The notes under the pieces: model-generated | The model's database searches: none | What the model was told of the DNA's origin: nothing | Seen by the model: the letters and a program-made list of their open reading frames with translations, nothing else | Virus record (IMG/VR): IMGVR_UViG_3300035670_001422 | Location: 1-20,950 of that record | From: a virus | Length of the DNA stretch: 20,950 nucleotides | Direction: 5' to 3' (one strand) | Program-made: the position numbers and the translations under genes | In this document: positions 11,013 through 18,053 of the stretch, piece after piece | Position numbering within the stretch: the stretch's first letter is position 1 | Layout of the letters: every line of letters begins with the position of its first letter

Positions 11013-11330
11013 TTACTCCTGTGTAATTACTGCGATTAAATCCTTGTCATTACATATCTGGTATTTCTTTTCATCTACGCCCATTACGTCCCGGATTCCA
11101 GCATACTTGGCGAATAATACCCGATCGCCAGGCTTTGGCTTTTCTCCCTGCCAATCTTCAAAGGCATTGCCACCATGGGCAACCAAAAAACCCTTTACCT
11201 GCGCCCATTGCTCTTTTTCTCTGGCAATCTCCGGGCGATACAATATCCCTGACTCGGTTTTCTCTGGCACCTCATCCGGAAGGATTAAAACTTTATACTC
11301 CAATGGCTGTAAACCTGATTCGTTAATCAT
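11013..11330 (-). CDS. GroES-like co-chaperonin (phage Cpn10)
   Basis: 105 residues, about the length of GroES (97). LQPLEYKVLILPDEVPE (7-23) corresponds to the first strand of Cpn10. KTESGILYRPE (24-34) is the mobile loop, with Ile29-Leu30 as the hydrophobic contact that inserts into GroEL. VKGFLVAHGG (46-54), KPGDRVLFAKYAG (67-78) and NDKDLIAVI (94-102) match the remaining conserved strands. Bacterial and phage Cpn10 proteins cap GroEL. T4 gp31 is the known precedent for a phage version needed to fold the capsid protein. Here it lies between portal and scaffold in the late operon, so capsid folding is the likely job. Ribosome site GAGG lies 6 bases upstream, and the start overlaps the previous stop by 8 bases. 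No GroEL gene is in the window, so the host GroEL would be the partner. Confidence 0.9.
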   Translation of the reverse strand: MINESGLQPLEYKVLILPDEVPEKTESGILYRPEIAREKEQWAQVKGFLVAHGGNAFEDWQGEKPKPGDRVLFAKYAGIRDVMGVDEKKYQICNDKDLIAVITQE

Positions 11331-13441: not shown

Positions 13442-14891
13442 TGGCAGACCTCCCCACTCTTGCCCGTTGCATATCCAACAGCTCTCCACGTGGCTCTGAT
13501 TGTGCGATACCGAGGCCTGTCATTATCAAATACCTGGTAGCGTCCATTAAATGATCACGATCCTTAACTATTTTTCCGTTTTCATCCCGGCGATATAGGC
13601 GATATTCATCAAACCAGTTGCGAAGGGTATTGAACACCTTAAGCCTGCCAGTCGACAGCCTCTGCCAAACCGCATAAATCCCAGCCTCAACAGAATTATC
13701 GGCCGGCGCCAACATTAACCCTAAATCCTGGTAAATCGCCATAAGCTGCTTGCCGTCCACCTGGGTGCGCCCGTTCGCCGCCGGGTCAATGGCCCCCGGT
13801 ATCCAATCTCCCCTTGATTGTATCGCATGGGAATGTATCAATGGCTCCGCTTGCCCCTGGTAGTGTTCGGAGTAAAGATAGACAATATCACTATCACGGT
13901 CCCACGCACCCCAAAGCGCCGCAGTCCTGTTCCAACCCACGTCAAAACCAAAAGCCCGAGGCCACCAGTAGGGCATATCGAACGGATCACAAGATATATC
14001 ATCCTCAGACAATGGATAAATAGCCCCTGAGCCAAGCTGAGGTATGCCCTTCGTCCGGCTATCCCTCTGATACGGGGGGATACTTGCCCAAAGTTCCTCC
14101 TTCTGCTCTGTAGTCAGATGCGGCGCATCATCCCAGGTTGCCGTAATGACATACCGGGGCGATGTTTTCTCAGGAATCTTACCATTAGGAAGGTAGTGCA
14201 ATACCGTTTCCGAAAGCCCCTGCAGTGGGGTAAATGTGCAGAGGATAGAGCCATCGGTGGTCATGGTCCGCATTAAACACTCAACATAGATATTATATGG
14301 CGGCTCTTCATCAAGCCAAATAATATCCTGCTCCGTGCCCTGGAAAGCCTCCCGGCGCTGGTCATAACTCTTGAGAATGAGGGTTGATACCCCACCGCTG
14401 ACATGCTTGACCTTGACGATCTCCACAGCCTCAGGAACGCCAGGTTTACTTAGCGGCTTACCCGATATGAGCCACCGGGGGATAAGTCCTGAGCCCATAT
14501 CATTCGATGGACCTAAAAGTTTTCGCTGGATAATGTCCCGTGTGGTCTTGGCAGTGTCGCCAGAGGCCCACGCCGATACGGGCCGGTCAAAACGCTTGCC
14601 CTGCCACCACTCAGGGTATAACCCGGACAAATGCAGGGTTAACTCGTAACCCCCTACACCCTCAGACTTGCCAACCCGGTTAGCTGCGATAAACAACCTT
14701 TCACGATATTGAGCCCCTGCAACGAAAAAAGCCGTATGCTTATGGTAAAGCTCACGGCGATTAGGTCCATCGTCTGGGTAATATTTATCAAATGTCCTGG
14801 CCTGCTCTAATTTTTTGCGCTGCTCAAGAATCTGTATCGCTTGTATCTTGAGATGCGCCGGCAGACTGAGCAAGTTCTCTAAGTTTATCAT
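13428..14891 (-). CDS. terL: Terminase large subunit (packaging ATPase/nuclease)
   Basis: 487 residues, the usual size. The ATPase domain has Walker A AANRVGKS (69-76) and Walker B IIWLDEE (190-196) with catalytic Glu after Asp194. CTFTPLQGLS (218-227) fits the coupling motif. The RNase H-like nuclease domain shows GFDVGW (Asp317), AIDPAANGR (Asp369) and DRDHLMDATRY (444-454), giving the three acidic clusters expected for metal-dependent cleavage. TerL drives DNA through the portal and cuts the concatemer. ATG at 14891 has AGGA 5 bases upstream and overlaps the TerS-like gene by 68 bases. The N-terminal RRELYHKHTAFFVAGAQYRE is the typical adenine-binding lead-in. Which packaging mode is used (headful or cohesive end) cannot be told from the sequence alone. 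Confidence 0.95.
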   Translation of the reverse strand: MINLENLLSLPAHLKIQAIQILEQRKKLEQARTFDKYYPDDGPNRRELYHKHTAFFVAGAQYRERLFIAANRVGKSEGVGGYELTLHLSGLYPEWWQGKRFDRPVSAWASGDTAKTTRDIIQRKLLGPSNDMGSGLIPRWLISGKPLSKPGVPEAVEIVKVKHVSGGVSTLILKSYDQRREAFQGTEQDIIWLDEEPPYNIYVECLMRTMTTDGSILCTFTPLQGLSETVLHYLPNGKIPEKTSPRYVITATWDDAPHLTTEQKEELWASIPPYQRDSRTKGIPQLGSGAIYPLSEDDISCDPFDMPYWWPRAFGFDVGWNRTAALWGAWDRDSDIVYLYSEHYQGQAEPLIHSHAIQSRGDWIPGAIDPAANGRTQVDGKQLMAIYQDLGLMLAPADNSVEAGIYAVWQRLSTGRLKVFNTLRNWFDEYRLYRRDENGKIVKDRDHLMDATRYLIMTGLGIAQSEPRGELLDMQRARVGRSAIAGY

Positions 14892-15156
14892 CTAATTCCT
14901 GTGGGCTCATGTTTAAAAGTCTCAAATCTGTTTCGATTTTGTCCGGGAGCGCTTTCCTGATAAGTTCTTTCAGGATTAAATTGTCCCCTGGCACTTTTTT
15001 CCCATTCTCTGTATAGCCATAGGCTCGTTTTATTGCCAGCTCCAGGAGGCCAGGGGCGGCCTGGGCGAAAATCTCCCGAACCTCTTTTTTGTGAGGGTTG
15101 ATTGCTCCCTTAGGTTTCCCTGTCGGATTTCCCGATTGTCCCTTTATCCACGCCAT
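14824..15156 (-). CDS. Putative terminase small subunit (DUF5681-like N-terminus)
   Basis: 110 residues. The N-terminus WIKGQSGNPTGKPKGAIN carries the GQSGNPxGxPKG motif that I associate with DUF5681 proteins encoded before terminase genes. The remainder is helical (EVREIFAQAAPGLLELAIKR, LILKELIRKALPDKIETDL), ending in a polar Asp/Ser-rich tail. TerS proteins bind the packaging site and regulate TerL. Direct placement before, and 68-base overlap with, terL supports this, though no classical helix-turn-helix is obvious. The ribosome site is weak (GAGAG about 13 bases upstream). It is the first gene of the late operon and reads away from the plus-strand small-gene island across a 171-base divergent region. 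Confidence 0.72.
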   Translation of the reverse strand: MAWIKGQSGNPTGKPKGAINPHKKEVREIFAQAAPGLLELAIKRAYGYTENGKKVPGDNLILKELIRKALPDKIETDLRLLNMSPQELDDKLRELAQSAGASQDTSDTDS

Positions 15157-15184: not shown

Positions 15185-15243
15185 TGTCAAAAAACTGACA
15201 TCTATCTGTCAATCTATTGGCACATAAAAAAAATGATTTGTCA
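15185..15243. promoter_or_regulatory. Phased TGTCA/TGACA operator-like motifs in the divergent control region
   Basis: TGTCA at 15185, TGACA at 15196 and TGTCA at 15207 are exactly 11 bases apart and form two overlapping inverted repeats with 6-base spacers. Another TGTCA lies at 15239, and TGACA recurs in the plus-strand -35 (15268). The three TGTCA copies also read TTGACA on the minus strand, so they could be -35 elements for the late operon, although no good -10 follows. The rest of 15157-15327 is AT-rich with no further feature seen. Confidence 0.5.
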
Positions 15244-15266: not shown

Positions 15267-15295
15267 TTGACAATCTTGCTTTTATTGCTTATATT
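15267..15295 (+). promoter_or_regulatory. Sigma70-type promoter for the plus-strand small-gene island
   Basis: A consensus -35 TTGACA (15267-15272), a 17-base spacer and TATATT (15290-15295, 5 of 6 matches) lie 32 bases before the first small ORF, followed by AGGGAGGA as ribosome site. It is the best promoter in the window and needs no phage factor, so early or constitutive transcription is likely. The minus-strand late operon starts 110 bases upstream of it. Confidence 0.82.
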
Positions 15296-15327
15296 GTATC
15301 TAACAAATTGAGAGGGAGGATTTAGAA

Positions 15328-15453
15328 ATGACAACTTTTTTTCAGTATCTTGATTGGGGATTTGGAAACAAAGATTCCGCATTTTCCCGGGATATGTGGA
15401 GGTTGGTTGGAAGTGATGATGGGTTTGAGTATATTTGCGAATTGTTGCAATAA
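15328..15453 (+). CDS. Unknown 41-residue protein, first gene of plus-strand island
   Basis: ATG with a near-perfect ribosome site (AGGGAGGA, 7 bases upstream) behind a strong promoter. It encodes 41 residues that are acidic and aromatic: FFQYLDWGFGN, SRDMWRLVGSDD, FEYICELLQ. There is no signal peptide or membrane segment; the C-terminal helix is amphipathic. The family is not recognised. The small size, net negative charge and early-type promoter resemble the general profile of phage host-takeover or anti-defence proteins, but that is only a profile match. The gene is the first of three co-directional small ORFs ending at a terminator, and opposite in direction to all other genes here. Its AT-rich codons contrast with the GC-richer second ORF. 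Confidence 0.68.
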   Translation: MTTFFQYLDWGFGNKDSAFSRDMWRLVGSDDGFEYICELLQ

Positions 15454-15462
15454 ATATTATGA

Positions 15463-15478
15463 GGGCCATGGATGGCCC
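15463..15478 (+). promoter_or_regulatory. Palindromic hairpin before the second island gene
   Basis: GGGCCAT and ATGGCCC are separated by two bases; as RNA this gives a 6-bp GC-rich stem with loop UGGA. It sits 10 bases after the first ORF's stop and directly before the TTGGAGG ribosome site (15481-15487) of the second ORF. No T-run follows, so it looks like an mRNA-structure or protein-binding site rather than a terminator. Confidence 0.5.
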
Positions 15479-15492
15479 CATTGGAGGAAAAA

Positions 15493-15696
15493 ATGAGCAA
15501 GCGTTATTTTTACACTGTAATCGATGATGGCAAATGCCTCACGGTCCACCGTTCTCTTAGTCGGGCGGATCGTGAGGCGATGGTGGCCGGCAACTCCCCT
15601 TGGGGGAGGCCGGTGGCGTCTAATAGCAGCCTGGTTCGGTCGGCCAGGCGGATCGCAGATGCCGGTCAAGGTTGGCCGGTGGAGATAAGGAGATAG
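15493..15696 (+). CDS. Unknown 67-residue basic protein, second gene of plus-strand island
   Basis: Start set at ATG 15493, where GGAGG lies 5 bases upstream. An in-frame ATG at 15472 sits inside the preceding hairpin and lacks a ribosome site. The 67-residue product begins with strands (KRYFYTVIDDGKCLTVHRSL). It continues with a helix-turn (SRADREAMVAGNS) and a basic C-terminal helix (LVRSARRIADAGQGWPVEIR). It carries a net positive charge and a single Cys and has no transmembrane segment. The family is not recognised. It is noticeably richer in G+C than the first island gene, which suggests that the island's genes have separate histories. A DNA- or RNA-binding role would suit the charge, without other support. 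Confidence 0.7.
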   Translation: MSKRYFYTVIDDGKCLTVHRSLSRADREAMVAGNSPWGRPVASNSSLVRSARRIADAGQGWPVEIRR

Positions 15697-15699
15697 AAA

Positions 15700-15897
15700 A
15701 TGGAAACGATGAAAAGAATGAACTCTGGCGGCATGGTTTATGCCACCAATCCCAGCGGGTGGGGTCTTTTCGTGCGCAGGGAACACGATGGAGCCTATAC
15801 CCAAGTTTCGGCTAATTTGTATTTTCCTGATGAAAAAAGCTTTATCCGTCACCTCAAAAGGGCCGGGATCAAACCTGGGAGGCTTATCGGTTGGTAG
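15700..15897 (+). CDS. Unknown 65-residue protein, third gene of plus-strand island
   Basis: ATG at 15700 lies 3 bases after the previous stop with AAGGAG about 8 bases upstream; a second in-frame ATG at 15709 is an alternative. The product is 65 residues: a Gly/Met-rich beginning (KRMNSGGMVYATNPSGWGLF), strands (YTQVSANLYF), and a basic helix (KSFIRHLKRAGIKPGRLIGW). No signal peptide or membrane segment is seen, and it matches no family I know. The pattern 'VYATNPSGWGLFVRRE' suggests a small beta sheet. Its stop lies 17 bases before an intrinsic terminator that closes the island. Tight spacing with the second ORF indicates co-translation. Confidence 0.72.
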   Translation: METMKRMNSGGMVYATNPSGWGLFVRREHDGAYTQVSANLYFPDEKSFIRHLKRAGIKPGRLIGW

Positions 15898-15914
15898 TCT
15901 TCCGCCTCCACCCC

Positions 15915-15942
15915 CCCCGGCCCTCCCTGGCCGGGGTTTTTT
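15915..15942 (+). terminator. Intrinsic terminator closing the plus-strand island
   Basis: An 8-bp perfect GC stem (CCCCGGCC / GGCCGGGG) with a 6-base loop is followed by six T residues. It ends the island and lies just 11 bases from the convergent lipoprotein gene's stop. On the minus strand the stem is not followed by a T-run, so it mainly serves plus-strand transcription and would protect the convergent replication operon from antisense read-through. Confidence 0.92.
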
Positions 15943-15952
15943 GTTGGCATAA

Positions 15953-16249
15953 CTACCTAAGCCCCCACATATAGACGTTATAATTTTTGGGCTGAGTTTG
16001 AGCCTGGTATAATAACGAGGCTCCTATCAGCGCCGTCCCCACCTGCTGGCGTCTGGTTTCCTGGGCCTCCAGCATGGCCTCCTTGTGGGCAATCTCGTTA
16101 AATCTCTGCTGCCGGGCCATGGGGTCCGCGATCTGCTCCAGGTCGGCATACTGCCGGGCAATGTCTTGCTTGGCCTGGTGGTAGGGGGAAGCGACGCAGC
16201 CGGCCATGAGGACGGCGAAAATAATCGCCACAGCGGTCAAGGTTCTCAT
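15953..16249 (-). CDS. Small secreted lipoprotein
   Basis: 98 residues from ATG 16249, with GGGAG about 10 bases upstream. MRTLTAVAIIFAVLMAGC is a clear lipoprotein signal: Arg at 2, a hydrophobic core and lipobox LMAGC with the modified Cys at 18. The residue after Cys is Val, not Asp, so in a Gram-negative cell outer-membrane sorting is expected. The mature part is helical and Gln/Ala/Glu-rich (QDIARQYADLEQIADPMARQ, then HKEAMLEAQETRRQQ) and ends with a short hydrophobic stretch and MWGLR. It closes the replication operon, so it is likely an early product. Small phage lipoproteins of this kind can block receptors against superinfection (T5 Llp is the precedent). It lacks the Pro-rich form of an Rz1 spanin, and no Rz partner is seen. 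Confidence 0.8.
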   Translation of the reverse strand: MRTLTAVAIIFAVLMAGCVASPYHQAKQDIARQYADLEQIADPMARQQRFNEIAHKEAMLEAQETRRQQVGTALIGASLLYQAQTQPKNYNVYMWGLR

Positions 16250-16890: not shown

Positions 16891-17792
16891 TGAGCGGCTC
16901 CAATCTGTTTTAGGATTGAATCGAATCTTTCGTTTTGCTCCATGGTCCCGTAGGGTTCTTTTTTGAACCTAAGATAGAATTGCCAGTCCTCATCGGTTAT
17001 GTTGGGGGGCTTGGCGGGTGAATGAGTTTTCCTGTTGCCTTTTTTGGGAATTATTTCATCTTCCCAACGCTTATTGTTGAGCCAGACCTCGGGGCCAGCT
17101 ATGAATTTTTTATCATCGGAAAAGTTGTCTCCGACCAGTTGTTTTTTAAGGGCAGCGATGATTTCCTCTTGCTGGTCTGGTGTGAATTTATATTTATCCC
17201 AGGATTTTTGGGCAGCGGCTCGGTTAACGTGTTTTGGGTAGAGGTCGTAAAATTCAGAAAATCGGCTATGATTTTGGGTTTTGATATTTTGGATTTTGGG
17301 CAGTGCTTTTATTTCTGTTTCTGTTTCTGTTTCTGTTTCGACATACCCTTTCGGTGGGTCTTTCAGTAACCCTTTCGGCATAGCTTCGGCAAAGGCTTTA
17401 CTAAAGCCTTCCATAAAGACTTTAACGCTTTGTAAATATTTATCTTTTAGGCTACACTCCGGCAACATTCCTTCTAACTTTACCCACGACTTTACTACAT
17501 TAGGGTTCTCAGGCATGTTGTATTTGATGAAGTTTGGGAAGCATAAAAAGTTTGCATTTTCGTCATACTGAATCATGCCTTTCGATAAGACTTCCAGAAA
17601 GGCTTCCCGAAAGGCTTTAATATCCCACTTCATGAACTCGGCCATACCAGAAATAGTAAACTTCATAGCTCCTACAGCAGTAAGGTCTGGGAAAGTGATA
17701 AGAGTAAACCATAAGAGCTTGGCCTTGTCTGACAATGACCTAAATTTTACATCATTATGAACCTTAACGTCTATTTTACGATAAAAGCTCAT
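16878..17792 (-). CDS. Phage replication initiator / helicase-loader-type protein
   Basis: 304 residues. The N-terminal half (1-95) looks like a winged helix: RKIDVKVHNDVKFRSLSDKA, then LLWFTLITF, then AFREAFLEVLSKGMIQYDEN and FPNFIKYN. This is the pattern of replisome-organiser proteins. Residues 120-150 contain 4-residue repeats (VKVF, MEGF, SKAF, AEAM), and 151-160 a Glu-Thr dipeptide repeat. The C-terminal half (178-247) has FSEFYDLYPKHVNRAAAQKS, a D-K rich helix, and FIAGPEVWLNNKRWEDEI, typical of phage replication proteins related to lambda O / DnaT-like loaders. It would recognise the origin and load the helicase. Start overlaps the RHH regulator's stop as ATGA; its own stop overlaps SSB. 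The DNA encoding the repeats may itself be the origin. Confidence 0.82.
   Translation of the reverse strand: MSFYRKIDVKVHNDVKFRSLSDKAKLLWFTLITFPDLTAVGAMKFTISGMAEFMKWDIKAFREAFLEVLSKGMIQYDENANFLCFPNFIKYNMPENPNVVKSWVKLEGMLPECSLKDKYLQSVKVFMEGFSKAFAEAMPKGLLKDPPKGYVETETETETEIKALPKIQNIKTQNHSRFSEFYDLYPKHVNRAAAQKSWDKYKFTPDQQEEIIAALKKQLVGDNFSDDKKFIAGPEVWLNNKRWEDEIIPKKGNRKTHSPAKPPNITDEDWQFYLRFKKEPYGTMEQNERFDSILKQIGAAQCQV
17312..17426. repeat. Iteron-like repeat block, candidate replication origin (cluster A)
   Basis: Three kinds of direct repeat crowd together inside the initiator gene: TTTCTG four times (17312-17335), CCCTTTCGG twice (17346 and 17370, 24 bases apart), and 12-bp units starting at 17379, 17391, 17403 and 17415 (AAAGGCTTTACT, AAAGCCTTCCAT, AAAGACTTTAAC, with a diverged first copy). 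An AT-rich stretch follows at 17421-17450 and could be the melting region. Intragenic origins with iterons are established for lambda O and for replisome organisers of several phages; here the role is inferred. Confidence 0.62.
17574..17621. repeat. Second set of 12-bp iteron-like units (cluster B)
   Basis: Units at 17574, 17586, 17598 and 17610 (a diverged first copy, then TAAGACTTCCAG, AAAGGCTTCCCG, AAAGGCTTTAAT) match the consensus of cluster A and start 195 bases from it. They encode residues 58-73 of the initiator, inside the winged-helix region, so protein constraint is an alternative explanation for the similarity. Confidence 0.5.
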
Positions 17793-18001
17793 TGGTCATT
17801 AACCTCAATTATTTGAAGTTTTTTGCCCGTTTTTACCTTTGGGATTGCCCCGTTATAGATAGCACTTAATATACAAGCCCTGATAAACTCAGCGGATGAC
17901 ATTCCTATTGATTCGGCAGCATCTTCAACAATCTCCTTAAAATGCGAAGTTACCCGAAACTGCATCCTTGCGTCTCTATCCAATATCCTTTTTTTTCTCA
18001 T
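17789..18001 (-). CDS. Ribbon-helix-helix (Arc/MetJ-type) transcriptional regulator
   Basis: 70 residues. ARMQFRVTSHFKEIVEDAAE (11-30) has the expected short beta strand (MQFRV) followed by helix A, the turn IGMSSAEFIRACILSAIY is the second helix of the fold, and the tail is basic (KVKTGKKLQ). RHH proteins dimerise and insert a two-stranded ribbon into the major groove. The ribosome site AAGGAGG lies 10 bases upstream. It has its own promoter in the 57-base gap after the helicase gene, and half-site-like repeats overlap the -10, so autoregulation of itself plus initiator, SSB and downstream genes is likely. A Cro-like timing role for replication genes is a reasonable inference. The stop overlaps the initiator start as ATGA. 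Confidence 0.85.
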   Translation of the reverse strand: MRKKRILDRDARMQFRVTSHFKEIVEDAAESIGMSSAEFIRACILSAIYNGAIPKVKTGKKLQIIEVNDQ

Positions 18002-18005
18002 TTCT

Positions 18006-18038
18006 TGTTAGCCTCCTTGTTATACTATAAAGCTAACA
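18006..18038. promoter_or_regulatory. Operator-like repeats at the RHH promoter
   Basis: TGTTAGC (18006-18012) and its inverse GCTAACA (18032-18038) flank the -10 and ribosome site, and CTTGTTA occurs twice 12 bases apart (18004 and 18016). Short direct or inverted repeats spaced about one helical turn are usual RHH operators, so the downstream regulator is the likely ligand. Confidence 0.55.
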
Positions 18039-18053
18039 CATATCGTCTGTCAA
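18024..18053 (-). promoter_or_regulatory. Internal promoter before the RHH regulator
   Basis: Minus-strand TTGACA (18053-18048) and TATAGT (18029-18024; TTATAG at 17-base spacing is the alternative) are 18 bases apart, just after the helicase stop and upstream of the AAGGAGG site. It would let RHH, initiator, SSB and lipoprotein be expressed apart from the recombination genes. Confidence 0.72.

Follow-up and report, generated by a model that had tools for sequence, protein, structure and literature searches.

The three-gene island described here is situated between the DNA-packaging genes and the replication genes of an uncultured bacterial virus. The stretch analyzed, referred to below as the window, is a linear IMG/VR virus record of 20,950 bp; it is probably a fragment, with much of the phage genome missing. 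Its gene set is that of a podovirus, comprising on the structural side TerL, portal, a GroES-like co-chaperonin, the major head protein, a head-closure protein and a DNA-ejection-type protein, and on the replication side SSB, a DnaD-like replication initiator, a DnaB-like helicase and a RusA-like resolvase. The GroES-like gene (11013-11330, minus strand) is flanked by portal on one side and scaffold on the other, and ct2G2228 is annotated likewise at the same place. Among named records, the closest by TerL are EBPR podovirus 1, at 57% identity, and Podoviridae sp. ct2G2228, at 54.5%. The nearest of the contigs recovered, L097 (92% identity for the head protein [MCP] and 71% for DNA over 4.4 kb), stops short of the island; among relatives that span the island site, the best TerL identity is ~66%. 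Scans with the flanking TerS and lipoprotein genes found no relatives. The island and its immediate surroundings hold the following features:

14824-15156, minus strand: small gene in the TerS position (DUF5681), divergent neighbor of the island and start of the late operon
15185-15222, no strand assigned: operator-like array of TGTCA (15185), TGACA (15196), TGTCA (15207) and TGGCA (15218) in exact 11-bp steps
15267-15295, plus strand: predicted near-consensus sigma70 promoter, TTGACA-17-TATATT, 11/12 consensus match with a 17-bp spacer
15328-15453, plus strand: ORF1, 41 aa, GGGAGG ribosome site, without known relative
15460-15480, plus strand: small hairpin in the ORF1-ORF2 gap, GGGCCA-TGGA-TGGCCC, immediately 5' of the ORF2 ribosome site
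15493-15696, plus strand: ORF2, 67 aa, GGAGG ribosome site, GC 58%, without known relative
15531-15690, plus strand: strongly folded RNA segment inside ORF2, a run of four GC-rich hairpins with an MFE of -81.6 kcal/mol over its 160 nt
15700-15897, plus strand: ORF3, 65 aa, AAGGAG ribosome site, without known relative
15915-15942, plus strand: predicted intrinsic terminator, CCCCGGCC-CTCCCT-GGCCGGGG-TTTTTT, perfect stem of 8 G-C pairs, 6-nt loop and six T
15953-16249, minus strand: 98-aa lipoprotein-like gene (lipobox LMAGC), convergent neighbor, closing the early minus operon

The first-pass annotation had described a plus-strand unit in an otherwise minus-strand window, with a sigma70 promoter, three ORFs of 41, 67 and 65 residues behind strong ribosome sites, and a perfect-stem terminator followed by six T residues. 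Each of these elements was recovered, the two transcription signals as predictions, and every other convincing gene of the window was found on the minus strand. Shuffling gave a chance expectation of 0.01 promoters of 11/12 quality for the 800-bp region and of 0.37 for the whole window, where one other such site exists (minus strand, at 18053). At least three non-overlapping ORFs on the same strand, each of at least 40 aa and with a ribosome site, arose in 19 of 5000 shuffles. The small hairpin at 15460-15480 was no stabler than its shuffled counterparts (z -0.8). The lipoprotein gene converges on the island and stops 11 bases from the end of the island terminator, and no strong minus-strand terminator was detected in a scan from this gene to TerS; antisense minus-strand early transcripts may therefore run through the island. 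The lipoprotein-like gene itself (MRTLTAVAIIFAVLMAGC...), with which the replication operon closes, has a weak match to phrog_13472, a family of unknown function.

Codon usage of ORF1 and ORF3 matched that of the phage's own genes (shuffle p 0.001 and 0.0015, respectively), and the match of ORF2 was weak (p 0.09). The start of ORF2 is placed at the ATG at 15493, which carries the GGAGG site; an in-frame ATG upstream at 15472 is less likely. A competing minus-strand ORF of 131 aa (15457-15852) lacks a ribosome site and scores negatively for codon usage; it was rejected as a true gene, and no alternative on the minus strand is considered credible. Profile searches with Pfam, PHROGs, NCBIfam and PADLOC returned no match for any of the three products, for which the first-pass annotation had recognized no family, apart from a chance-level PHROGs hit for ORF3 (E 0.12); defense and anti-defense families, sought in PADLOC, Pfam and NCBIfam, were likewise without a match. 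No real match was obtained by tblastn of phage records with all three ORFs or of plasmid records with ORF2 and ORF3, and no homolog was found by tblastn of all fetched loci (~190 related) with ORF1-3, in the full records of 45 relatives with ORF2 and ORF3, or among PDB sequences with ORF1. Viral contigs scanned with patterns of ORF2 and ORF3, and bacterial genome contigs scanned for ORF3, yielded nothing. At the present depth of search, the three products are orphans. Two candidate relationships were discarded: ORF1 as a YozE/SAM-like protein (PF06855 was unmatched in the window at E 10, though control genomes matched), and ORF2 as a relative of an L057 gene sharing the motif SRADR (the match spans 13 residues only). 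A single-sequence model of ORF3 predicted a beta-beta-beta-alpha arrangement of fair quality (pLDDT 78.8), for which Foldseek found nothing at E <= 0.001 in PDB or among viral structures; its structural neighbors by VIA (Z at most 4.7, 9 A rmsd) were uninformative. The ORF2 model (pLDDT 45.8) was too poor for a structure search.

The site was then compared among relatives. A TerL search identified 136 viral relatives, the best 80 of which were kept. Among the relatives examined, 49 of 59 carried one or more opposite-strand genes within 2.5 kb upstream of TerL, a count obtained with a home-made gene caller and one that overstates independence, over half of the relatives with such genes belonging to one close cluster. 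A sigma70 promoter matching at least 10 of 12 positions was present in the 200 bp before the first opposite-strand gene in 9 of 62 scored relatives, against 1.5 expected. In L068, the hexamers and spacer are identical to those of the island (TTGACA-17-TATATT) and precede a 42-aa gene; in L057, TTGACA-18-TACACT is followed by a three-gene unit (63, 41, and 95 aa). The opposite-strand genes of relatives are not homologous to those of the island. In EBPR podovirus 1 and ct2G2228, the genes just upstream of TerL are all co-directional, and there is no opposite-strand unit. According to the first-pass annotation, an ordinary early operon containing these three genes in related phages would speak against an island, and no such arrangement was encountered in the relatives examined; as to its suggestion that the island might be replaced or absent in related phages, relatives hold different small genes at the site, and no close relative with an empty site was found. 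One of the loci collected, L088, is a phage terminase fragment (51% TerL identity) within a bin labeled Borreliella garinii; the label looks wrong, and the isolate name suggests a sulphidic-cave metagenome.

Given that relatives commonly hold small opposite-strand genes at this place, some of them with strong sigma70 promoters, a standing divergent early unit is likelier than a moron inserted once. The simplest reading would be a standing divergent early slot whose contents turn over, filled in this phage by three genes in a compact unit with its own predicted signals at either end. It is proposed with moderate confidence that the island is the divergent, host-polymerase-driven immediate-early unit of a podovirus, located at a hypervariable site upstream of TerS. 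Upon infection, host sigma70 RNA polymerase would transcribe the island at once from the promoter at 15267, reading away from the packaging and structural operon and stopping at the terminator at 15942. The three small, presumably fast-evolving proteins would be directed at the host cell, for takeover or counter-defense, rather than at virion assembly; relatives keep differing small opposite-strand genes at the same site upstream of TerS. A regulator, probably a dimer binding cooperatively to one face of the DNA at 15185-15222, would balance the early unit against the late operon. The island would not constitute the whole early region because the replication genes are on the other strand with their own promoter (18053). 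Homologs of the ORF1-3 products are lacking, and therefore comparison cannot yield their function; a host-takeover or anti-defense role is one that we infer for the island.

The unit had initially been described as a moron-like cassette, and the corresponding explanation is that of a classical moron: a cassette that recently entered between two phage operons, is expressed independently from the prophage and benefits the host or lysogen, for example by superinfection exclusion. Published criteria for a moron include bracketing by promoter and terminator (PMC5567305), and the island has both a predicted sigma70-type promoter and a predicted factor-independent terminator of its own around products without a family, so that the autonomous anatomy stands; the lack of an opposite-strand unit upstream of TerL in ct2G2228 and EBPR podovirus 1 is also consistent with an insertion. 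However, the GC content of the whole island (49%, 68th percentile) equals that of the genome (48%), most relatives have opposite-strand genes at the same position, no empty site is seen in a close relative, and neither an integrase nor a repressor was recognized in the fragment. An insertion, unlike the anatomy, is thus at most putative, and the classical moron is considered unlikely. The base composition of the individual genes had been taken to suggest separate origins, ORF1 being AT-rich and ORF2 GC-rich. The contrast exists (38% GC, 5th percentile, and 58%, 97th percentile, respectively, with ORF3 at the 63rd) but is mild, and the argument drawn from it is weak.

Upstream of the island promoter, in the gap that separates it from the TerS start (15156), lies the array at 15185-15222; its half-sites pair into two 16-bp palindromes, TGTCA-N6-TGRCA, that share one helix face. 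Three half-sites phased in this manner occurred in none of 20,000 shuffles, and the array is likely bound by a regulator, being placed such that it may affect the TerS operon, the island, or both. The divergent gap of L061 contains a pair of near-identical 16-bp palindromes, ATTACATTTTTGTAAT and ATTACATTAATGTAAT (~970-1113 bases upstream of TerL), which are likewise operator-like and analogous to the TGTCA array. It has been considered whether an island protein itself recognizes the 11-bp-phased TGTCA/TGACA array beside its own promoter and governs the divergently transcribed late (TerS) operon as an early-late switch, a function to which both the intergenic position between two divergent starts and the 16-bp TGTCA-N6-TGACA geometry, suited to a dimeric binder, would be appropriate. 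Against this, profile searches recognized a DNA-binding family in none of the three proteins, a looser test admitting any 5-mer present three times at 10-12-bp steps was satisfied by 42 of 5000 shuffles, much of the genome is probably absent from the record, and the phage has a separate ribbon-helix-helix-like protein; we regard the switch as quite improbable. The gene for the latter protein (70 aa; 17789-18001, minus strand) is directly preceded by the second 11/12 sigma70 promoter of the window, TTGACA-18-TATAGT (18024-18053, minus strand), and its product matches PF21983 (NikA-like) at 28.9 bits, marginally above the cut-off. A TGTTAGC/GCTAACA inverted repeat surrounds the second hexamer of this promoter and the ribosome site, and the gene may perhaps encode a self-regulated repressor.

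Within ORF2, the segment at 15531-15690 was the most structured (z -4.7) among the 160-nt segments sampled from the window; 2 of 174 background segments reached -3.9. The ORF2 transcript was also stabler than 299 of 300 protein-preserving codon permutations (z -3.1; controls averaged -0.4, with a lowest value of -2.55), a result of moderate significance obtained on one sequence with a test devised after the hairpins had been noticed. Comparable folding was seen neither in ORF1 and ORF3 nor in four small genes of relatives. Rfam gave only weak, chance-level hits to the segment and none at the gathering score, and searching phage and plasmid DNA with it returned nothing beyond chance hits. The structure is regarded as a lead, and ORF2 may be, or may contain, an RNA element. 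The notion that ORF2 is mainly such an element, its four hairpins carried on the transcript between ORF1 and ORF3 and its frame incidental or doubling as a short protein, draws on this folding, on the weak codon signal and on the failure to find a protein homolog, but is set against a good GGAGG ribosome site with 67 open codons, the absence of an Rfam match, the reliance on a single sequence and the post hoc nature of the test, and is very unlikely to be correct. It would be a long shot that a functional structured RNA at 15531-15690, between two small proteins and expressed from a host sigma70 promoter on entry, represents a new type of phage RNA-plus-protein cassette for host takeover; if real, the structured segment would bring RNA into the repertoire of counter-defense and host control.

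The divergent immediate-early unit remains the favored interpretation. Sites of small early gene exchange among related phages offer a practical hunting ground for new counter-defense and host-control proteins, and this one can be recognized in many uncultured podoviruses by a single landmark, the divergent gap that precedes the terminase genes.

The island resembles the units found upstream of TerS in L057, L068, L070, L055 and L067 in lying at the same place and pointing the same way with respect to the terminase genes, and several of these also have near-consensus sigma70 promoters; it differs from them in that the proteins are not homologous and in its compact bracket of promoter and terminator, the equal of which was confirmed in none of the five. 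With the early ORFan region of lytic podoviruses exemplified by the Pseudomonas phage LUZ24, where small database-unique early genes are found behind sigma70 promoters and several inhibit host growth (PMC4635203), the island shares small database-unique proteins and a strong predicted host sigma70 promoter, presenting, like early host-takeover operons, small non-core genes behind a predicted host-polymerase promoter. Unlike the LUZ24 region, it has three genes only and is on the strand opposite both the replication and the structural operons. Phage morons, a term used for lambdoid phages and also applied to SPP1 (PMC6316719), are alike in being small genes of unknown function between core operons with their own sigma70 promoter and rho-independent terminator; the island differs from these in that the GC content of the unit as a whole is not foreign, and its insertion and any expression from a lysogen would be conjectural. 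In its workings, the island would appear to resemble a moron or else an early operon of short length.
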